Positions 43,465 to 64,000 of a stretch of DNA of 64,000 nucleotides are shown in pieces. Under the pieces are notes generated by a model. That model was not told the origin of the DNA and did not search any database. It saw only the letters and a list, made by a program, of their open reading frames with translations. Where the stretch lies: positions 62,001 to 126,000 of the forward strand of contig NZ_AP026709.1 in the NCBI RefSeq assembly GCF_027923765.1, in the 5' to 3' direction. Numbering within the stretch: the stretch's first letter is position 1; each line of letters begins with the position of its first letter. Source of the DNA: Pseudodesulfovibrio nedwellii. GTDB taxonomy: Bacteria > Desulfobacterota > Desulfovibrionia > Desulfovibrionales > Desulfovibrionaceae. The translations under genes were made by a program, and so were the position numbers.

Positions 43465-43530
43465 TATCAAAATTCCCATGATGTTAGATTCACTGTGCCC
43501 TCGCGCACAGTCAAACGAGTGAGGATAGTT

Positions 43531-45969
43531 ATGGGTAAGAAGGAATCTGAGAAACCCCCTGTAGAAGGGCGGCTTGGAAGACGTAAATTCCTGAAATGGA
43601 GTGCCGCGCTCGGTGGGGTGACAGCCCTGTCGGGAACCGGTTTTTTTTATGGTCTTCGGTCTGTTGAGAGCGCTGAACCATTCGCCGATAAGGTTGTTTG
43701 GACATCCTGCAATGTGAATTGCGGCAGCCGATGTGCCTTGCGGGCTTTTGTAAAGGATGGCGTGGTCACCCGTGTCGAAACAGACGACAAGGGTGAAGAT
43801 ATTTATGGCGATCATCAGGTCCGTGCTTGTTTGCGCGGTCGTTCAATGCGCCACCGTATTTATGCGCCGGATCGTTTGAAGTACCCCATGAAGCGTGTGG
43901 GCAAACGTGGTGAAGGCAAGTTCGAGCGTATTTCCTGGGACGAGGCTTTGGATGGAATCGCAAAGAGTCTGGGCGATACTATTGAGAAGTGGGGCAACGA
44001 GTCCGTATATCTGAATTATGGCACCGGCAACCTTGGCGCAGTCATGTCCAAGTCCTGGCCGACTGGCTCCACTCCTGTTGCCCGTCTCATGAACTGTCTG
44101 GGCGGCTACCTCAATCAGTATGGAACGTATAGTGATGCACAGATCGACATGGCGTTGCCGTACACCTTTGGTAAGGGGTGGGTTCGTGGCAACCTCTTGT
44201 CTGACATCGTCAACAGCAAGCTGGTGGTGTTGTTCGGCAACAACCCCGCTGCCACACGCATGAGCGGTGGTGGTCTTGTGCATGATGTGATTCAGGCCAG
44301 GAAAAAAGGGTATGCGCGGATTATTGTCGTTGATCCTCGTTTTACGGATACAGCCACAACACTGGCTGATGAATGGATTCCCATCCGTCCGGGCACCGAT
44401 GCAGCGCTAGTTTGTGGTCTGGCCCATGTGATGATTTCCGAAAATCTGGTTGATAATGATTTCATCAAGCGGTGTACCGTCGGCTATGACGAAGATTCCA
44501 TGCCTGAAGGCGTGCCTGCCGGTAATTCTTACAAATCCTACATTCTGGGCACGGGCAAGGACGGTCAGGCAAAGACACCGGAATGGGCTTCGAAGATTAC
44601 GGGTATTCCCGTTCGCCGTATTGTCCAGCTGGCCCGTGAAATTGGTCAGGCAGAGCCTTGCTATATCTCTCAAGGGTGGTCCGTACAACGTCAGGCCAAC
44701 GGTGAAAACAACTGTCGTGCCATCAGCATGTTACCTATTCTTACAGGCAACGTGGGAGTGCAGGGCGGTAACACCGGCGCCCGTGAAAGTGGGTATGGAA
44801 TCCCGTTTGCTCCTTTCCCGGTTCTTCAGAATCCGGTCAAGACATCCATATCCTGTTTTACCTGGACTGATGCCATTGAACGCGGCACGGAGATGACTGC
44901 GAAAAGGGATGGTGTGCAGGGACGTGATCGTCTGGAAGCACCTATCAAGTTTATCTGGAACTATGCTGGCAATTGTCTTGTAAATCAGCATTCAGACAGC
45001 AATCGGACATCGGAAATTCTTGCTGACGACAGCAAGTGTGAAACCGTTGTGGTCGTTGATAACTTCATGACGCCAAGCGCTAAATTTGCTGATTATCTTC
45101 TTCCTGCGACTTCAAACCTTGAAGAGGATGATTTTGCTCCTCAAGGTTTTTCTTCGGAAATGGGCTACGTTATTTTTGCAGAAAAAGTCATTGAGCCACT
45201 TTTTGAAAGTCGTACCATTTTTGATATCTGTGCAGGTGTAGCCAAACGTCTGGGTGCGGAACAGAAATACACTGAGGGACGGACCCGTGCGCAATGGGTT
45301 GAATATGTCTATCAGAAGTCTCGCGAAAAATTGCCCGAGCTTCCCGCCAAGCTTGAGGATGCCTTTGCCATGGGATTGTATAAGCGTGAAAAGCCCGGTT
45401 TGCCTCCGGTTCCTTACAAGGAATTTCGGGATGATCCTGAAGGCCATCCCTTGAGGAGTCCTTCAGGTAAATTGGAAATCTTTTCCAAGCAACTTTGGGA
45501 TATCGCTCATGAATGGGAACTCGCCGAAGGCGATGTCATATCCGGTCTTCCGGAATACGCTCCCACTTGGGAAGGCGTTTCTGATCCTTTGAGAAAGGAA
45601 TTTCCTCTGCAATTGATTGGTCATCATTATAAACAACGCACGCATTCCACCTACGGCAATGTGGACTGGCTGAAAAAAGTCGCGCCACAGGAACTCTGGA
45701 TCAATCCCATGGATGCCGAAGAACGAGGCATTGTCCACGGCGGAAAGGTCAAGGTCTTCAACGCTCGAGGCGTGGTTTACACCATTGCCAAGGTCACACC
45801 CCGCATCATGCCAGGTGTTTTGACCCTGCCTGAGGGGGCATGGTTTGATCCGGGCAAGGATGGAGCTGACCACGGTGGCTGTGTAAACGTTCTGACGACA
45901 CTTCGTCCTTCACCGTTGGCAAAGGGGAATCCCCAGCATACCAACCTTGTACAGGTCGAAAAGGCGTAA
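43531..45969 (+). CDS. dmsA: DMSO reductase catalytic subunit A
   Basis: Molybdopterin enzyme reducing dimethyl sulfoxide (and some N-oxides). 812 residues from ATG 43531 (an upstream start would bury the signal). Twin-arginine signal GRRKFLKWSAAL; FS0 Cys ligands in WTSCNVNCGSRCALRAF; then RACLRGRSMRHRIYAPDRLK. The block YLNQYGTYSDAQ supplies the Ser that ligates Mo, as in DmsA. The C-terminal end RPSPLAKGNPQHTNLVQVEK closely matches E. coli DmsA. The dmsB and dmsC genes follow. Exported folded by Tat; DMSO is the best substrate guess, with S-oxides and N-oxides also possible. Confidence 0.93.
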   Translation: MGKKESEKPPVEGRLGRRKFLKWSAALGGVTALSGTGFFYGLRSVESAEPFADKVVWTSCNVNCGSRCALRAFVKDGVVTRVETDDKGEDIYGDHQVRACLRGRSMRHRIYAPDRLKYPMKRVGKRGEGKFERISWDEALDGIAKSLGDTIEKWGNESVYLNYGTGNLGAVMSKSWPTGSTPVARLMNCLGGYLNQYGTYSDAQIDMALPYTFGKGWVRGNLLSDIVNSKLVVLFGNNPAATRMSGGGLVHDVIQARKKGYARIIVVDPRFTDTATTLADEWIPIRPGTDAALVCGLAHVMISENLVDNDFIKRCTVGYDEDSMPEGVPAGNSYKSYILGTGKDGQAKTPEWASKITGIPVRRIVQLAREIGQAEPCYISQGWSVQRQANGENNCRAISMLPILTGNVGVQGGNTGARESGYGIPFAPFPVLQNPVKTSISCFTWTDAIERGTEMTAKRDGVQGRDRLEAPIKFIWNYAGNCLVNQHSDSNRTSEILADDSKCETVVVVDNFMTPSAKFADYLLPATSNLEEDDFAPQGFSSEMGYVIFAEKVIEPLFESRTIFDICAGVAKRLGAEQKYTEGRTRAQWVEYVYQKSREKLPELPAKLEDAFAMGLYKREKPGLPPVPYKEFRDDPEGHPLRSPSGKLEIFSKQLWDIAHEWELAEGDVISGLPEYAPTWEGVSDPLRKEFPLQLIGHHYKQRTHSTYGNVDWLKKVAPQELWINPMDAEERGIVHGGKVKVFNARGVVYTIAKVTPRIMPGVLTLPEGAWFDPGKDGADHGGCVNVLTTLRPSPLAKGNPQHTNLVQVEKA

Positions 45970-49504: not shown

Positions 49505-50662
49505 ATGGAAAAGGGATTCGGTGCCAGGATTGGCAAACATCAGTGGCTCCTGCTTGCCGGAATATGTCTGGGAGGGGTGTTACTTATTTCTGCCGCCGTA
49601 GGGGCCGGGTCAGAAGGTGATGAGGATGAAGGAAATAGTTTGTGTCTATCGTGTCATGTCATGGAACAAACAGTGTATCCTGAGTTCAAAAAAACAAAAC
49701 ATTTTAACAACTCGTCAGGTGTTCGAGCCAAGTGCTCATCCTGCCATGTGCCGCAACCCCTGATACCCATGTTGGAAAGAAAGGCCGCATCGGTTTCCGA
49801 AATATTCAGTTGGATGGCTGGCACCATTGATACTCCTGAAAAATTTGAAGAAAATAGACTGAGACTTGCAAAAAGTGTGTGGGCTGATTTTAAAGAAAGC
49901 GATTCTCGCGAATGCAAATCCTGCCACAATGTCACTGCTTTTGATTTTACAGCTTTCAAGAAGCCGGAATCTGCTAAGACGATGCAAAAGGGCTTGCAGG
50001 ATGGGCAGACGTGTATTGATTGCCATAAAGGTATTGCCCATACCATGCCGGACCTCTCTGCCGGATTTAGAATGTTGTATGAAGAAATCCAAAGTGAGGC
50101 CAAGAACGGCGACTTTGATGTCGAGGCAGTTTATCCAATCAGTGTCGCCAGTTGCTTTCTTGAAAAAGATGGCTCCAAAGCTGGCAGACTTCTTCCCCTT
50201 ACCAAACTTGAAGTACTCGAAACATCCGGTGACTGGGCCAAAGTCCGTGTTCGTGGTTGGCAGCAGATCGGGGCTGAACGCGTCATTTGTGAAGCTCAGG
50301 GGCGGCGTGTTTTCGCGGCTGCCCTGAGTAAGAAAGTGCTCGATACAGTCAAAGGCGGAGAACCCATGGTTGACCCTGAAACCGGGCAATCATGGCGTAA
50401 GGCTGAATTCGACTGCTGGATAAAGGTTGGAGAATTCGTGGCTGATATTGACCGGTTGAACAACTACGGCAGTGAACTTCATGCGGCAACGTGTGGTGGA
50501 TGCCATGCACAGACACCGGCCAGTCATTTTACGGCCAATCAGTGGATTGGCGGCATCAAATCGATGGGCAACAGAGTGTCATTGGACAAGAATAATTATC
50601 GGCTTTTGCTGAAATATCTCCAGATGAGAGCATCTGATGTCACCGGAGAGACTCATTCATAA
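49505..50662 (+). CDS. torC: pentaheme c-type cytochrome TorC
   Basis: 385 residues. N-terminal membrane anchor WLLLAGICLGGVLLISAAVGA. Five heme motifs: CLSCH (near 47), CSSCH (near 78), CKSCH (near 138), CIDCH (near 173) and CGGCH (near 330). The first four form a NapC/NirT-type tetraheme domain that oxidises menaquinol; the fifth lies in a separate C-terminal domain, the arrangement that defines TorC. It passes electrons to periplasmic TorA. An AAAGGAGAA ribosome site precedes ATG. Confidence 0.93.
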   Translation: MEKGFGARIGKHQWLLLAGICLGGVLLISAAVGAGSEGDEDEGNSLCLSCHVMEQTVYPEFKKTKHFNNSSGVRAKCSSCHVPQPLIPMLERKAASVSEIFSWMAGTIDTPEKFEENRLRLAKSVWADFKESDSRECKSCHNVTAFDFTAFKKPESAKTMQKGLQDGQTCIDCHKGIAHTMPDLSAGFRMLYEEIQSEAKNGDFDVEAVYPISVASCFLEKDGSKAGRLLPLTKLEVLETSGDWAKVRVRGWQQIGAERVICEAQGRRVFAAALSKKVLDTVKGGEPMVDPETGQSWRKAEFDCWIKVGEFVADIDRLNNYGSELHAATCGGCHAQTPASHFTANQWIGGIKSMGNRVSLDKNNYRLLLKYLQMRASDVTGETHS

Positions 50663-50673
50663 AGAGGTTTTGT

Positions 50674-51336
50674 ATGCTGAAAGAAGAAAAGAACACCATG
50701 ATCAATAGGCCGTTGATTCTGACGTGGATCGCAACATTGTTTGCACGCGAACTCACTCTGGACGATGTCGAAAGTTACAGGAACGGCAAGGGCCGAGTAC
50801 TTCTCGATACGATTGCAGGTGAGATCCCTGAGGCCGTTGAACTTGAACGTATGCGGTCTATTCTTCAGGGACCCGGAACATACGAGGATACCGTGTTGGA
50901 TTTGGCGGGTGCATTCTCGTGGCTTTTTCATGGAGTCGGGGGGCCAAAGGCTGCGCCTACGCATTGGCATGACTGGTCGGAGGAGTCCGACGGTTCGCAA
51001 ATGAATTGTATTGATACCTGTGCGGAACTCATGTCCCGATGCGGACTTGGACCGGCTTTGGAAAGCGATGAGTCTGCTGATCACGTGAGCGTGCAGTTGG
51101 AGTTTCTTGGTTATCTGGAAGCGCGGTCAGCGTCTGACCCTGATGGGCCATGGAATGAATATCGTGATCAATTGGTGCGTGATCAAATCAATGCATGGCT
51201 TCCTTACTTTTTGACTGCCTGTGAACGCAATGATCGAAACGGTTTCTATGCCGCTTTGGCAAGTTTTACGCGAAGGATCTTATCGGATTCTTTGACGGGC
51301 AGTGCAAATTCTACTCATGCAGCACACGCTGCCTAA
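50674..51336 (+). CDS. torD: TorD chaperone for TMAO reductase
   Basis: 220 residues, helical. ALAWLFH-like FSWLFHGVGGPKAAPTHWHDW and ESADHVSVQLEFLGYLEA are characteristic of TorD. It sits between torC and torA, 11 bases after torC and 24 bases before torA. It binds apo-TorA and its Tat signal before cofactor insertion. A possible internal ATG at 50698 would shorten it by 8 residues. Confidence 0.9.
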   Translation: MLKEEKNTMINRPLILTWIATLFARELTLDDVESYRNGKGRVLLDTIAGEIPEAVELERMRSILQGPGTYEDTVLDLAGAFSWLFHGVGGPKAAPTHWHDWSEESDGSQMNCIDTCAELMSRCGLGPALESDESADHVSVQLEFLGYLEARSASDPDGPWNEYRDQLVRDQINAWLPYFLTACERNDRNGFYAALASFTRRILSDSLTGSANSTHAAHAA

Positions 51337-51360
51337 CTACACATTACGGAGGTAATTCTT

Positions 51361-53811
51361 GTGACACAATCGAATCAGAACAACAGACCAGGAATGTCGC
51401 GTCGTCAATTCCTCGGTTATTCCGCAGCCGCTGGTGTTGCGACATCGTTGTTGGGACCATCCATGCTCGGGACAGCCATGGCCGGAAGCCCTGAAATGAA
51501 CGCAGGTTCCTGTGCTACTTTCTGGGGCATTTTCAAGCTTCAGGCTCAGAATGGCAAGATCGTGAAATCCGAACCTTTCGGCAAGGACAGCTCCGTCAAC
51601 GAGATGACCACTAATATGCCGGGATACGTTCATTCTCCCGCTCGTATCAAGTACCCCATGGTACGCAAGGGCTTTCTGAAAGATGGTTACAAGTCTGATA
51701 CTTCTGAACGAGGTAAAGGCGAGTTTGTTCGAGTCAGCTGGGATAAGGCCGGTGAGCTGATTGCCGACAACCTTTATCGTATAACCAAGGAGTATGGACA
51801 GGATTCCGTCTATTCCACTCCCAGTGGGTGGTACATGTTGGGTAAGGTTAACTCGGCAGGCGCCTGCATGAGCCGTCTTTCCAACTTGATGGGTGGTTTT
51901 GTCCGTGCCGTGGGTGATTATTCAACCGGTGCTTCGCAGGTCATCATGCCGTATGTTGTTGGTAATATGGAAGTCTATAGCCAGCAGACTTCATGGCCCG
52001 TGATCGTTGAAAATTCCGATGTGGTTGTCATCTGGGGCGGAAATCCGATGAACACGTTGCGCATCTCCTGGCCAGCTCCGACCCATAAGGGAATCGAGAG
52101 TTTTGAGGAGTTGAAGAAGCGCGGCAAGCGTCTCATTTTTATTGATCCGACCCGTAACGAATCCATTCAGGAATTGGGCGGCGAATGGATTGCTCCGCGT
52201 CCCAATACCGATGTCGCCATGATGTTGGGCATTGCGTATACGGTTCATGAAAAAGGACTGACAGACAAGTCGTTTATGGAAGAGTATACAAGCGGCTTCG
52301 ACAAGTTCCTTCCTTATCTGCTTGGTGAATCCGATGGTCAGCCAAAAACACCTGAATGGGCAGAATCCGTCTGCGGTGTGCCCGCCAAGACAATGCGTGA
52401 ATTGGCCGAAGTTTTTGCCAAGAACCGTACGATTTTGATGAGTGGTTGGGGTATCCAACGTGCCGACCATGGTGAGCAACCTCACTGGATGTTGGTAACT
52501 TTGGCGTGCATGCTCGGTCAGATCGGTCTGCCCGGTGGTGGCTTCAGTATTGGTCATTTGTATTCCAATCAGGGAACTCCGTTTGCAAACGCTCCGAGTG
52601 TCCCCGGTATGTCCGGCGGCAAGACGCCTGAAGGTGCTCCTACACCGATTCCCACCGCACGGAATATCGATATGCTGCTGAATCCCGGAAAAATTATTGA
52701 TTATAATGGTCGCAAGGTGAAATATCCCGACATCAAGATGATTTACAACGGTTTTGCCAACTCCCATACCCGTCAGCCGCAACGTGAATCCGCTATCAGG
52801 GCATGGCAGAAACCCGAGTGCATTGTTGTTCATGAAATGTTCTGGACACCCACCGCACGGATGGCAGACATCGTGCTGCCTATCTCCACGCCAGCCGAGT
52901 GCATGGATATGACGACCAGTGAAGACGGACGTTTCCTGATTCCGTTGAAGCCAGCTATCAAGCCGCAGTACGAATCCAAGCCGACCTTTGATGCTTTTGC
53001 CTTTGTCGCAGGCAAGCTCGGTATTGGTTCTCAGTTCACCGAGGGCAAGAGTGGCGCACAATGGCTTGAATCCTTCTATAATCAGGCCATGGCTGATGCA
53101 AAACGTAAAGGTTTGACCATGCCTGCCTTCAAGGAGTTCTGGGACAAAGGTGAAATTCTTGAATTCAAGGTGCCCGAATCCGCCAAGACGTGGGTTCGTT
53201 ATAATGAGTATCGCGAAGATCCGCTTCTTGAGCCGTTGGGAACGCCTTCCGGCAAGATCGAAATCTATTCCAACGCGATTGCCAAAATGGGGTATGATGA
53301 CTGCAAGGCGTATCCTTCTTGGATTGAGCCGACCGAGTGGCTTGGATGCGAGAAGGCCAAGACCTATCCTTTGCATTTGATGACCTCTCACCCCAGACAT
53401 CGCCTGCATTCGCAGATGAACCATGTGAAGGCACTCCGCAAACTGTACACTGTACAGGGACGCGAACCTGTGTGGATCAGCGTGGAAGACGCCAAGGCCC
53501 GTGGAATCAAGGATGGCGAGGTTGTACGCATCTTCAATGATCGTGGTGCCGTTTTGGCAGGAGCCATGGTAACTGACAACCTTCGTCAGGGAGTCGTTCG
53601 TCTTTGTGAAGGCGGTTGGTATGATCCCATCGAACCGGGAAAATCTGGGTCTATGTGCGCTTACGGTAGTGCCAATGTCCTGACTCTGGACAAGGGAAGC
53701 TCCAAGTTGGCGCAAGCAGTCAATGCCAACACCAGTCTGGTGCAGATTGAGAAATACAAGGGTAAACTGCCTGAAATAACTGTGTTTGATGCACCCAAGG
53801 GTACAATGTAA
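51361..53811 (+). CDS. torA: trimethylamine-N-oxide reductase
   Basis: 816 residues from GTG 51361 with ACGGAGG 9 bases before. Tat signal MSRRQFLGYSAAAGVATSLL, cleavage near AMA. Single-subunit periplasmic bis-MGD enzyme with no N-terminal Fe-S ligand set: the usual CxxC site is replaced by CATFWGIFKLQAQNGKI. AVGDYSTGASQ supplies the Ser Mo ligand; GWGIQRADHGEQPHW and EDGRFLIPLKPA are TorA/DorA-like. Substrate TMAO is expected; DMSO and biotin sulfoxide are alternatives in this family. The neighbours torC and torD fix the assignment. Confidence 0.93.
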   Translation: MTQSNQNNRPGMSRRQFLGYSAAAGVATSLLGPSMLGTAMAGSPEMNAGSCATFWGIFKLQAQNGKIVKSEPFGKDSSVNEMTTNMPGYVHSPARIKYPMVRKGFLKDGYKSDTSERGKGEFVRVSWDKAGELIADNLYRITKEYGQDSVYSTPSGWYMLGKVNSAGACMSRLSNLMGGFVRAVGDYSTGASQVIMPYVVGNMEVYSQQTSWPVIVENSDVVVIWGGNPMNTLRISWPAPTHKGIESFEELKKRGKRLIFIDPTRNESIQELGGEWIAPRPNTDVAMMLGIAYTVHEKGLTDKSFMEEYTSGFDKFLPYLLGESDGQPKTPEWAESVCGVPAKTMRELAEVFAKNRTILMSGWGIQRADHGEQPHWMLVTLACMLGQIGLPGGGFSIGHLYSNQGTPFANAPSVPGMSGGKTPEGAPTPIPTARNIDMLLNPGKIIDYNGRKVKYPDIKMIYNGFANSHTRQPQRESAIRAWQKPECIVVHEMFWTPTARMADIVLPISTPAECMDMTTSEDGRFLIPLKPAIKPQYESKPTFDAFAFVAGKLGIGSQFTEGKSGAQWLESFYNQAMADAKRKGLTMPAFKEFWDKGEILEFKVPESAKTWVRYNEYREDPLLEPLGTPSGKIEIYSNAIAKMGYDDCKAYPSWIEPTEWLGCEKAKTYPLHLMTSHPRHRLHSQMNHVKALRKLYTVQGREPVWISVEDAKARGIKDGEVVRIFNDRGAVLAGAMVTDNLRQGVVRLCEGGWYDPIEPGKSGSMCAYGSANVLTLDKGSSKLAQAVNANTSLVQIEKYKGKLPEITVFDAPKGTM

Positions 53812-58357: not shown

Positions 58358-58651
58358 TCAGGCGTTCAGCGGAGTCAGGACAACTTCCTTGTTTTCGTTG
58401 AATTGCAGAGAATACGTTTTCCCATATTTTTCCAGAAAGTCTTCTTCTGCGGTGAACGGAACACCATTTATTTCAATTTGTACATCATCATCTTCATCCG
58501 GTTCGTCCATGCCCAGACCGAGCACTATTTTCGCGTGTCAGCCTCCGCCGACTTTGTATTCGCGCAGTCGAATACAGGTTTCCTCATCTTCGTCTTCAAG
58601 CATGGCCCGGAGCTTTTCAAGCATTTCTTCCGGGACGGTCAGTTCAAACAT
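58358..58651 (-). CDS. HesB-like selenoprotein (in-frame UGA read as selenocysteine)
   Basis: 97 residues if the TGA at 58540-58538 is read as Sec38. The frame is continuous on both sides: MFELTVPEEMLEKLRAML... then REYKVGGG-U-HAKIVLGLGMDEPDEDDD, ending VVLTPLNA. Small HesB/IscA-related proteins have a Cys at this GGG position, and HesB-like proteins are a known bacterial selenoprotein family. A bSECIS-like hairpin begins 12 nucleotides after the UGA: stem GUGCUC/GGGCAU, loop GGUCU, at 58525-58509. CGAGGG gives a ribosome site. The product is acidic in the middle. A likely role is Fe-S or redox chemistry beside the GRE genes. Ordinary gene callers would miss or split it. Confidence 0.85.
58509..58525 (-). 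promoter_or_regulatory. bacterial SECIS hairpin
   Basis: Stem GUGCUC with GGGCAU (six pairs, two of them G-U), loop GGUCU with exposed GU. The apical loop starts 18 nucleotides after the UGA, within the usual spacing of bacterial SECIS elements. Confidence 0.75.
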
Positions 58652-58674: not shown

Positions 58675-59217
58675 TTAGAATCTGACGGGCTTGAGCCCGT
58701 GTGTGGCAAATGTTCCAGTATGGTAGTTGATGATTTCATCATCGGCGTTCTCTGCCTTTTGCAGTGAGTCGGGGTGGAGAAGCAAATCGGCGCAGATGGC
58801 TGTCGCCGATTCCACGTAATCGAGACAGACTCCTTTGGAATCGGAATTTGGATCGCGGTCCTTGCTCAAATCCCGGCAACAGATGCTGCCGTATTGAGTC
58901 AAGAAACGATCATATAATGCCTTTGATGCCTTTCGAACTTCATCATCATCGGTGGGCAGGGGGCCTTTTCCGAGAATGAGACTTTGGGCCATGACCGCAC
59001 CTGCCAATGCGCCGCAAACACATCCCGCATCGCCGATACCACCACAGAATCCTTTGGATATCGCAATGAGAATGTCTTGTGACAAGCCGCCGTCGAATTT
59101 CCGGTTGATGACCGTGAGTACTGCCTCGGAGCAGCACATTGAGCCATTGCCGTATAATTCTCTGGCTGTCGTGCCGGATTGTATAATGAGGCGTGTATCC
59201 TGGGAGCGGGGTTCCAT
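58675..59217 (-). CDS. C_GCAxxG_C_C family redox protein
   Basis: 180 residues from ATG 59217, chosen because GAGAGGA precedes it and earlier in-frame codons overlap the activase gene. Cysteine pattern SMCCSEAVL, GGIGDAGCVCGALAGAVM, then SICCRDL and GVCLDYV, as in the C_GCAxxG_C_C family of putative redox-active or metal-binding proteins. Function is unknown. It lies 20 bases after the activase gene and 23 bases before the selenoprotein gene, so all belong to one operon. Confidence 0.8.
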   Translation of the reverse strand: MEPRSQDTRLIIQSGTTARELYGNGSMCCSEAVLTVINRKFDGGLSQDILIAISKGFCGGIGDAGCVCGALAGAVMAQSLILGKGPLPTDDDEVRKASKALYDRFLTQYGSICCRDLSKDRDPNSDSKGVCLDYVESATAICADLLLHPDSLQKAENADDEIINYHTGTFATHGLKPVRF

Positions 59218-60266: not shown

Positions 60267-62720
60267 TTAGGAGTTGTATTCCGTACGTTTGATGATTTCA
60301 TTCTGTACGCCCATGTCCAAACGAGTGAAGTAGGCGCTGAAACCGGCAACGCGGACAACCAGATCTGAGTATTCTTTCGGGTTGACCTGCGCATCTTTCA
60401 GGGTCTTGGAATCCACGCAGTTGAACTGGATGTGGGAGCCGCCGAAGTCGCAGTATGTCTTGATTAGAGACACCAGTGTGCGTGCGCCCTGTGGGCCTTC
60501 CATGATAGAGGGAGAGAACTTCACGTTGAAGTGGTTTGCTCCGTAGCGGACTGTGTCGATGGCTTCTGCGCCGGACTTGATGAGAGCGGTGATGCCTTCA
60601 TGGTCAGTACCGGGCATTGCGGAGACACTGCCGTCAGTCAGTGCGACACCAGCCTTGCGTCCGTTGGGCAGAGCGCCCATGAGTGCGCCGAAGTAGTTGT
60701 GGTAGGACAGGGAGTATGCGTCCAGCGGAGTGCGGTAGCCGAAGCAGTCCGGTCCTTGAGCATGGTGGATAGCATCAACATCTTTGTAGTACTGCTGCAC
60801 AAAGCCTTCTACTTCTGGTTGGTCGTTGCCATGCTTGGGTGCTTCAAAACACATCTTGCGGATGTCTTCGCAGCCTTCGAAGTTTGATTTAATGGCGTCA
60901 AGCATCTCTTGCATGGTCAATTTCTTCGTATCGAAGACAAGATGCTTAATGGCGAGCAGGGAGTTCGCGGCATCAATACCAGCAGTCATGATGGGATTGA
61001 CCTGCGGGAAACGGGTACCGCCGGCTTCTTCGCAGACACCCTTTTCGATGCAGCCGTCGTACATGGCGGAGCGGAAGACGCTCGGAACGACCTGAAGTCT
61101 GGCCATTTGGCTCAGATCAGAGTGCTTCCGAGAGATGTTGAAGAGATGGTCGAGCTGTTTCTTGTAGGCATCGTACACCTCGTCAAAGGATGTGAATTCG
61201 GCGGGATCGCCGGTCTCAACACCAACTTTCTTTTTGGTGACAGGGCATTTACCGTTGTTCAGCATGACTTCGACGATTTTTGCGAGGCAGGGCTGGTCTT
61301 CCTGAGTGATGAAGCTGCCCTTTCCGCAGATACCTGTGGAGACACAACCATAGTTACCGCAGTTTCTGGCGTCTTCCAGAGAGATGCCGCCTTCGTATTG
61401 ACCGAAGCGGGAGAGGTTACGCTGAATAACCACGTTGTTGTTCAAAATCTGGGGCTGGCCGGAACCGCCGCGGATGCACTCTACAACTTTCTTCAGGTAG
61501 GAGTCTTTCATCTTGGGATGATAGAGCAGGGTCAGCGTGGGCTGAATGTTCTTCATTTTGACCTGAGTATCGAGCAACATTTCTTCCAGCTCGGTGCTGG
61601 CATCGTTGCCGTCGGCATCCACACCACCGATGGTGATGCTCTGTCCTGTGTGGCCGGAAAGGGTGAGAGCGTATGAATTGCCCTGATATTCAGCCAGTTC
61701 AAGGTGCTTGATCCATTGGAATTTGAGCAGAGTGGAGACCTGCTCACGTGTGAGGTTGCCTTCGTCGATGTCTTTTTTGAAGAAGGGGTACATGTACTGA
61801 CCGTAACGACCGGGGGACGTTGCGCATGCCATCTGTTCGATTTCAATGGCCAGATGGATGAACCAGAAGGATTGGATGGCCTCGCGGAAGTTGCGGGCCG
61901 GGAATTCTGGGACGCGGCGGCAAATCTCAGCGATTTCCAACAGCTCTTTTTTGGTCTTGGGATCGCTTTCATCGGCAGCGGTCTTTTCGGCGAGGTCTGC
62001 ATAGCGGTGAGAGTGGGCGATGACAGCTTCCAAGGTGACGAGCATTGACCGATACAGGTCGTGCTTTTCCTTGTTTTCCAATGTTGTGGGGCAGTCTTCA
62101 AAGCGCTTTTTTACATCATCAATGAGCCAGCGCAAACCCTTGTTCAGAGCCATGGGGTAGTCGGCGATACCGGAACCACTCGCGACACTGACATTTTCAT
62201 AGTACATGCCAGCTTTGGCGTACGGCTTGGGGTTGATGCCGTACTTTTCTTTGAACAATTTGTTGTTCAGATCGATGCAGGTGCGGCCTTTCCACAGTTT
62301 GTAGGTCTTTTCCAGCAGTTCCTGTGTCTCGGCGGGAATCTTCATTTCGCCAAGAGAAGCCATTTTGGCCATCTGCATTTCTTCTTTGATCCAGGAAACG
62401 TTCCATTCGGGGTATGCATATACACCGGCTCGCACGCCAGTCAGTGTACCAACGATGGGGTTGCCGTCGAGGAAGATGTTCTTTTTGGTCAGAACGCGTT
62501 CAAATAATTTTGCGCGGATATAGAAAGTGGATTCTCCCTGATATTCTTTATAAACTTCATTCAGGAATTGCAGACGTTCAGGGTCCATTACCTGCGGAGC
62601 GTTCATCAGGAAGTTTTTGAGTTCTTTGACACGGTCTTCAGCGGTGTTCCAGTCGATGCCATATCCCATGGAGGGGGTAGCAGAGGATTCTGAATCTTTT
62701 ATCATGGAAAGATTGGTCAT
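60267..62720 (-). CDS. glycyl radical enzyme of unknown substrate (GCVS active-site type)
   Basis: 817 residues, PFL/GRE fold. C-terminal radical loop VRVAGFSAYF with Gly793. The active-site Cys is Cys459 in NYGCVSTGICGKGSF. Most dehydratase and C-N/C-S/C-C lyase GREs (choline, diol, isethionate, hydroxyproline) have Glu two residues after this Cys as a general base; here it is Ser461. The substrate-side loop reads SPGRYGQYMYPFF, where many GREs have an RxDQY form. So it is not simply CutC, a diol dehydratase or IslA. X-succinate synthases also lack the Glu, but those carry small accessory subunits that are absent here. A sigma-54 promoter lies upstream and a PAS/sigma-54 activator is divergent. 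The substrate is open. Confidence 0.85.
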   Translation of the reverse strand: MTNLSMIKDSESSATPSMGYGIDWNTAEDRVKELKNFLMNAPQVMDPERLQFLNEVYKEYQGESTFYIRAKLFERVLTKKNIFLDGNPIVGTLTGVRAGVYAYPEWNVSWIKEEMQMAKMASLGEMKIPAETQELLEKTYKLWKGRTCIDLNNKLFKEKYGINPKPYAKAGMYYENVSVASGSGIADYPMALNKGLRWLIDDVKKRFEDCPTTLENKEKHDLYRSMLVTLEAVIAHSHRYADLAEKTAADESDPKTKKELLEIAEICRRVPEFPARNFREAIQSFWFIHLAIEIEQMACATSPGRYGQYMYPFFKKDIDEGNLTREQVSTLLKFQWIKHLELAEYQGNSYALTLSGHTGQSITIGGVDADGNDASTELEEMLLDTQVKMKNIQPTLTLLYHPKMKDSYLKKVVECIRGGSGQPQILNNNVVIQRNLSRFGQYEGGISLEDARNCGNYGCVSTGICGKGSFITQEDQPCLAKIVEVMLNNGKCPVTKKKVGVETGDPAEFTSFDEVYDAYKKQLDHLFNISRKHSDLSQMARLQVVPSVFRSAMYDGCIEKGVCEEAGGTRFPQVNPIMTAGIDAANSLLAIKHLVFDTKKLTMQEMLDAIKSNFEGCEDIRKMCFEAPKHGNDQPEVEGFVQQYYKDVDAIHHAQGPDCFGYRTPLDAYSLSYHNYFGALMGALPNGRKAGVALTDGSVSAMPGTDHEGITALIKSGAEAIDTVRYGANHFNVKFSPSIMEGPQGARTLVSLIKTYCDFGGSHIQFNCVDSKTLKDAQVNPKEYSDLVVRVAGFSAYFTRLDMGVQNEIIKRTEYNS

Positions 62721-63022: not shown

Positions 63023-64000
63023 ATGTATTTTGACGAAAAAAAGTTCCTTAATGTCAGTCGTGAAAGCGTTTTGACACCTTCCATGAAAGCCATCTGGGAT
63101 GATATGGGACTTGGGGTCGCCGTTGTAGATGCCAATGGCATTTGCGAATACATGAATCCCATTCAGAGTCAGGTGGACGGTTTTGGACGGATACCTGTGG
63201 TTGGGCAACACATAACAAGTCTTTATGTGCCACACGAGTTGGAGTGTATTCCCACCATGGAATGTCTACAGAAGGGGCGACCGCTTCTCAAGAAGAGTTA
63301 TTTTTACAAGACGACAAATAATTATCTTGCCAGCACGGTTTCTGATTTCTTTCCGCTGTTTGATAACGGAAAAAAGGATGGCGTCATTGCCTTTACTATT
63401 TGGACCGGCACGACGTCACTGGTGAAGAGACAAAGGCGTCCTGCCAAGGCGATTGTTCCTGGGCGAAGCTCTTATGAATATTATACATTCGACAGTTTGG
63501 TCGGGAAAGATGATGCCCTGATTGAAGTGCTGAACGAAGCACGGACGGCAGCACTGGCGCCGTCTCCAGTGATGATTTGGGGAGAAAGTGGCACGGGTAA
63601 GGAATTGTTTGCCCAGGCTATTCATGCCGCGAGTGATCGGTGCGACCATTCTCTTGTCCCGGTGAACTGTGCTGCCATCCCTGAAAATTTGTTGGAGGGT
63701 ATTCTTTTTGGCACGGCCAAGGGCGCATATACTGATGCTGCTGACAAGCCGGGGCTTTTTGAAGAAGCCGATGGCGGAACATTGCTTCTTGATGAGTTGA
63801 ATTCCATGCCCATGGGATTGCAAGCCAAACTCCTTCGAGTGCTCCAGGAAAAACGTGTGCGTCGGCTTGGGTCGCGTACAGAAATACCAGTGGACGTGCG
63901 AGTTATTAGTATTTTGAACGTCGATCCTCTCTACGCCGTGGAGCAGAATATATTGCGGCGAGATTTGTTTTATCGCCTTGCTGTCGTGGGGCTTGCCGTG
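63023..64000 (+). CDS. PAS-domain sigma-54-dependent activator, partial (window edge)
   Basis: First 326 residues; the gene continues past the window. N-terminal PAS domain (MGLGVAVVDANGICEYMN, about 30-47), AAA+ domain with Walker A GESGTGKE, Walker B GGTLLLDEL and VNCAAIPENLLEGILFGTAKG. The sigma-54 contact loop reads GAYTDA (234-239) where the consensus is GAFTGA; F to Y is common, but G to D is unusual. It is a paralogue of the activator at 15981. It is divergent from the GRE operon, which has a sigma-54 promoter, so it is its likely activator. AGAGG precedes ATG 63023. Confidence 0.88.
   Translation, partial: MYFDEKKFLNVSRESVLTPSMKAIWDDMGLGVAVVDANGICEYMNPIQSQVDGFGRIPVVGQHITSLYVPHELECIPTMECLQKGRPLLKKSYFYKTTNNYLASTVSDFFPLFDNGKKDGVIAFTIWTGTTSLVKRQRRPAKAIVPGRSSYEYYTFDSLVGKDDALIEVLNEARTAALAPSPVMIWGESGTGKELFAQAIHAASDRCDHSLVPVNCAAIPENLLEGILFGTAKGAYTDAADKPGLFEEADGGTLLLDELNSMPMGLQAKLLRVLQEKRVRRLGSRTEIPVDVRVISILNVDPLYAVEQNILRRDLFYRLAVVGLAV

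Follow-up and report, generated by a model that had tools for sequence, protein, structure and literature searches.

A glycyl radical enzyme clade without the catalytic glutamate

The 64,000-nucleotide stretch of Pseudodesulfovibrio nedwellii DNA analysed here (the window) encodes a glycyl radical enzyme (GRE) of 817 amino acids (62720..60267, minus strand) that belongs to a distinct clade of sulfate-reducing and other anaerobic bacteria, in which the Glu of the CXE motif is absent. Inside the bacterial order, the inheritance of this clade is coupled near-perfectly to that of a small selenocysteine (Sec) or Cys protein of the ErpA_rel family (NF033940). GREs drive anaerobic conversions in gut and sediment, including those of choline to trimethylamine and of isethionate to sulfite and the use of hydroxyproline, and a Glu-less clade paired with such a protein suggests radical chemistry not yet described. 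The genome containing the window is a single contig of 3.76 Mb, and the closest named record that we found for the enzyme is a metagenome-assembled genome (MAG) of Pseudodesulfovibrio sp. OB3 (100%).

The protein combines a PFL-like domain (Pfam, 520.9 bits), a Gly_radical domain with the RVxG motif (101.1 bits), the catalytic Cys, the GRE fold and a nearby activase gene, which place it in the GRE superfamily. Its identity to most solved relatives is 28-33%, with 28% for the X-succinate synthases (XSS) and 20% for pyruvate formate-lyase (PFL). None of the named NCBIfam GRE models (HypD, CutC, HpsG, HpfG, the indoleacetate and 4-hydroxyphenylacetate decarboxylases, PRK09983 and PFL) reached its cut-off, the best score being 513.8 bits against 1100, and the broader subfamily model TIGR01774 likewise stayed below its own (509.1 against 678.2). 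A tree of 75 rows puts the enzyme inside a Glu-less clade of 59, split off by one branch with an SH-aLRT (approximate likelihood ratio test) support of 100. The records with a member bear the names Desulfovibrio piger, uncultured Mailhella and Pseudodesulfovibrio, and one is a Lachnospiraceae MAG from yak rumen; relatives are spread over several bacterial groups. We found no description of this GRE in the open-licence literature, which leaves out bioRxiv preprints and most subscription papers. The scores below every named cut-off, the missing CXE Glu and a compact operon with signs of sigma-54 control support the claim of an apparently undescribed system, made in an earlier reading of the letters alone (the sequence-only reading).

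The same reading had pointed to Cys459 and Ser461 in a GCVS motif, to the substrate loop SPGRYGQY and to Gly793, all of which are present in the open reading frame (ORF). Counted from the ORF start, Cys459-Val460-Ser461, the Cys loop without a CXE Glu, lies at 61338..61346, and Gly793, the predicted radical site within RVAGFSA, at 60342..60344, both on the minus strand. Cys459 never varies in the 37 aligned rows, and conservation of Gly793 is 90% or higher. The residue at Cys+2, counted over 60 rows, is Ser in 29, Gly in 21, Gln in five, Ala in three, Thr in one and Glu in one; GCVS is kept in the listed homologues from about 75% identity upwards, with Gly, Ala, Thr or Gln farther out. What is universal in the clade is the absence of the CXE Glu, not Ser461. 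Nor is GCVS a unique mark, as had been implied: E. coli PflB reads CCVSP and the benzylsuccinate synthase TutD reads CMSP. The framing around Ser461 should therefore give way to another: the GRE clade lacks the Glu and, within its order, goes with an ErpA-related protein that has Sec or Cys.

How far does the active site depart from those of known GREs? Compared with the eliminases (glycerol/propanediol dehydratase, HypD, CutC, IslA and HpsG), the window GRE lacks the CXE Glu, and their substrate-loop Asp is replaced by Gly307. The Phe preceding the GG strand in CutC and HypD is Gly here, with a deletion of one residue (SGHTGQ, against GYQPFVN in CutC-type rows). Among the polar active-site residues of glycerol dehydratase, H281, S282, E435 and D447 align to C299, A300, S461 and Q473. 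Ser rather than Glu at Cys+2 is shared with PflB and TutD, and both known groups with this residue, PFL and benzylsuccinate synthase, perform C-C chemistry. In contrast to PFL, however, the window GRE has no adjacent Cys pair (Gly458-Cys459, against CC in E. coli PflB). Unlike the XSS enzymes TutD and MasD, it carries Glu474 at Cys+15, the position of the fumarate Arg (Arg508 in benzylsuccinate synthase, also Arg in TutD). No small accessory subunit of the XSS kind was recognised in the window operon; ErpA_rel or the C_GCAxxG_C_C protein described below could bind the GRE.

The CXE motif is conserved in GRE eliminases and the E470Q variant of IslA is inactive, according to two studies (PMC8473560, PMC7077986). 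The sequence-only reading concluded that the enzyme must use different chemistry. With the CXE Glu absent this is likely but unproved, because Ser at Cys+2 is known elsewhere and an acid, Glu474, lies nearby; Asp or Glu stands at Cys+14 or Cys+15 in 54 of 60 relatives.

Co-inheritance with a selenocysteine or cysteine protein

We searched a single sample of 297 genomes of the order for the GRE (E <= 1e-150) and for ErpA_rel (E <= 1e-8). The GRE is present in 49 and ErpA_rel in 48 (47 above the family cut-off). All 48 fall among the 49, leaving none in the other 248 genomes (Fisher 7e-55), and the one genome with the GRE but no ErpA_rel, G215, carries nothing closer than a 48%-identical enzyme. 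For 72 of the 83 ErpA_rel copies such a GRE is no more than 3 kb away, and seven of the other 11 are on contigs without one; seen from the GRE side, 49 of 56 places have one or more copies inside this distance. At loci L032-L051 the partner is present in 20 of 20. Clusters of up to three copies occur.

In the window, the ErpA_rel gene (58651-58358, minus strand; 140.1 bits against a cut-off of 65) would encode 97 amino acids, with Sec38 in GGGUHAK read from an in-frame TGA (58540-58538). Directly 3' of the UGA is a hairpin resembling a selenocysteine insertion sequence (SECIS), GUGCUC-GGUCU-GGGCAU (58509..58525, minus strand); a hairpin with the GGUCU loop accompanies 24 of 31 Sec copies and four of 23 Cys copies. 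The conserved in-frame UGA, the SECIS-like hairpin and the SelB encoded in the genome (398.6 bits against a cut-off of 242.25) support the prediction that the protein is a selenoprotein. Close relatives mostly read GGGU or GGGC at this position, and the protein has one invariant Sec/Cys.

The predicted structure of ErpA_rel is IscA-like (predicted local distance difference test score, pLDDT, 92.2): its best Foldseek match is E. coli IscA (1s98, E 1.8e-4), and GGGC/U aligns to the GGGC of the IscA-family protein HI1723. A-type carriers of the IscA/ErpA kind have three Cys, including a C-terminal pair. ErpA_rel, whose nearest known counterparts are IscA, ErpA, SufA and the HesB-like selenoprotein, shares the fold but lacks the C-terminal Cys of true Fe-S carriers, none of 23 rows having a Cys more than 20 columns past the GGGU/C site; it also differs in having Sec in many copies and in being tied, in the order, to one GRE clade. 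A review of 119 selenoprotein families and subfamilies includes, in its accessible part, HesB-like proteins (UxGP), and a term search of that part gave no match for ErpA, IscA or NF033940 (PMC13188914).

Operon structure and sigma-54 control

The operon partners named in the sequence-only reading (activase, C_GCAxxG_C_C protein and selenoprotein-like ORF) proved real by profile matches, and all lie downstream of the GRE gene on the same strand. The radical SAM glycyl-radical activase (60131-59238, minus strand, 297 amino acids) scores 370.9 bits against a TIGR02494 cut-off of 174.35, and all 20 loci with 75% identity or more have an activase within 8 kb of the GRE. The C_GCAxxG_C_C gene (59217-58675, minus strand; PF09719, 93.9 bits) encodes a putative redox protein, of 180 amino acids if the ATG at 59217 is the start. 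Its relatives were found by tblastn at 14 of the listed loci, some of which share one genome, so this protein is not a fixed part of the operon.

Dedicated sigma-54 control had also been proposed. A divergent gene for a sigma-54-dependent AAA+ regulator (63023..64000, plus strand) runs past the window end and encodes 498 amino acids in full (L112:6024-7520). Upstream of the GRE gene, a sigma-54 type -24/-12 promoter-like site, TGGCACACCTCCTGC (62813-62799, minus strand), has one mismatch to the consensus. Taken in the window alone, this pattern is at chance level, with 78 matches at up to two mismatches against 70.3 expected. In the fetched loci, 36 of 61 GRE genes but 16 of 475 other genes have, in their upstream 250 bases, a site that matches the consensus at 9 or 10 of its 10 bases, an enrichment whose P-value of 3e-27 overstates the case because the rows are related, not independent. 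Of the 19 GRE genes listed with 75% identity or more, 16 carry a site of this quality, 80-137 bases ahead of their called start, and 18 reach a score of 8 or higher. It is this conservation upstream of GRE genes, not the pattern in the window, that supports sigma-54 control.

Neighbouring genes and substrate hints

Within 8 kb of the GRE, the 20 loci with 75% identity or more show an APC amino-acid-type permease in 15 cases, TauE/SafE in 12 and DUF4125 in nine, in a set where some loci are near-identical, some are cut by contig ends and the gene caller misses genes (TauE in L112, for instance). A 70% relative (L115) has a BCCT transporter of betaine type, under the curated cut-offs, next to the regulator. 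Other relatives have Ssu/Tau/nitrate-type ABC (ATP-binding cassette) genes, TRAP genes, DASS with DctA, or MFS nearby, and in L128 an O-acetylhomoserine sulfhydrylase gene adjoins a relative. The common thread suggested by these neighbours is the import of small acids or zwitterions, with sulfur as a recurring theme.

Deep relatives at L136 and L137 (in G860 and G881), which belong to the Glu-less clade and have Gln as their Cys+2 residue, lie by acyl-CoA dehydrogenase-like genes; genes for enoyl-CoA hydratase and amidohydrolase are in the vicinity. They may belong to a separate degradation pathway.

A possible reaction and its alternatives

From these observations we infer a substrate, a reaction and a role for ErpA_rel. 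Our tentative preference, which we hold as possible rather than probable, is for a Glu-less radical lyase acting on an imported small carboxylate or sulfonate zwitterion, most likely by C-S cleavage, with a dedicated selenol/thiol protein. Sigma-54 would turn on the unit when the substrate is present, and this substrate, an acid resembling an amino acid, a betaine or a sulfonate, would be imported by APC, BCCT, Ssu/Tau-type ABC, TRAP or DASS carriers, varying by relative. The activase would place the radical on Gly793, from where it would move to Cys459; the resulting thiyl would abstract a hydrogen alpha to the charged group of the small anionic or zwitterionic substrate, and beta-scission of a C-S (or C-N) bond, C-S being the most likely, would follow without the classical hydroxyl deprotonation. 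Scission of this kind, at C-S or another beta bond, would therefore need no special downstream enzyme. Sec38 of ErpA_rel would most likely act as donor or acceptor (as a reductant, or taking up the released group or electrons); the role of a general Fe-S carrier is less likely. If sulfite or sulfide were released, the reaction would be an added route to gut hydrogen sulfide. A bolder version, which we think unlikely, is a two-component radical system in which a GRE without an acid-base Glu turns over with a dedicated small Sec protein as electron donor or group acceptor, so that C-S or C-N bonds of small zwitterions are cleaved reductively or by transfer. We know of no described GRE that forms such a system.

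Several observations weigh against the lyase proposal. The carrier families found take many substrates, TauE-family proteins are not sulfite carriers alone, the solute-binding and permease matches fall under curated cut-offs (SsuA_fam, 82.7 against 163.5), and the sulfhydrylase gene in L128 is a single case. ErpA_rel gave no match at L052-L056 and L106 (0 of 6), at L135-L138 or at the 48% GRE of L128, so the whole GRE clade does not need the partner. Nor is the partner exclusive: one copy over the cut-off adjoins a CutC-like GRE (L152), and a sub-cut-off ErpA_rel-like copy holding a TGA stands beside the Glu-bearing GRE of L154 (G212:C5). The L154 enzyme reads GCVEH, is 27% identical to the window GRE and has an activase; an ErpA_rel-type partner may reach another GRE type here. 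Finally, the Asp/Glu at Cys+14/+15 may be a replacement base.

Were that so, the window protein would be an ordinary eliminase-type GRE in which Glu474 stands in for the CXE Glu and the substrate is a hydroxy, amino or thio compound. We consider this unlikely: the acid is at Cys+14 in some clades and at Cys+15 in others, six of 60 rows lack it, and the counterparts of glycerol dehydratase H281 and S282 are replaced as well. The two known kinds of GRE without a CXE Glu, represented by PflB and TutD, are models for a C-C bond enzyme, either a PFL-like 2-oxoacid lyase or a fumarate-adding enzyme; set against the missing Cys pair of PFL and the replaced fumarate Arg of XSS, this strikes us as quite improbable. 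Loss of a residue essential in eliminases could also mark a degenerate or pseudo-enzyme, an explanation that is barely credible for a clade with its Cys invariant, its radical Gly conserved, an activase at each of the 20 loci with 75% identity or more and relatives in several bacterial groups.

Could ErpA_rel merely deliver Fe-S clusters to the operon's activase, the chemistry of the GRE being unrelated? Its NCBIfam name, its IscA-like fold and the nearby activase gene speak for such a role, which we regard as possible though rather doubtful. None of the 248 order genomes that lack this GRE has ErpA_rel, although at least three of them (G141, G196 and G016) carry other GREs with activases, and this makes a general activase Fe-S factor unlikely. 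The single invariant Sec/Cys, the lack of a C-terminal Cys and the occurrence of up to three neighbouring copies also argue against Fe-S delivery.

Other observations

DUF4125, in many cases accompanied by DUF4037 and a TPR protein, adjoins several different GREs, inside and outside this clade (L163-L166; L112:8315-8902; L044, L045, L049, L050, L131, L132). In limonene degradation, LrcL (DUF4125) and LrcM (DUF4037) are reported to be encoded in an operon after a chaperone gene for a GRE (PMC12583861). Proteins of these two families look like general GRE companions.

Methylated amines, offered as a guess at the substrate in the sequence-only reading, find little support: one neighbour is a BCCT transporter (L115), and the TorC-like and S/N-oxide reductase genes of the window (49505-53811) form a separate unit. 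This unit comprises a cytochrome matching the TorC model below cut-off, an ORF of 220 amino acids with no NCBIfam match at E 1e-30 and an S/N-oxide reductase (TIGR00509 over the cut-off, TorA models below). It is apparently a unit for trimethylamine N-oxide or S-oxide respiration, and perhaps the origin of the guess.

The window also encodes a catalytic subunit of the DMSO (dimethyl sulfoxide)/selenate reductase family (43495-45969; TIGR02166, 1201.9 bits against a cut-off of 777.7). The second GRE match of the genome (L002, G000:C1:1713986-1716397; 32% identity) keeps the Glu, with the loop GCTEARMPN, of HpsG type by motif, and has an activase-like gene adjoining.
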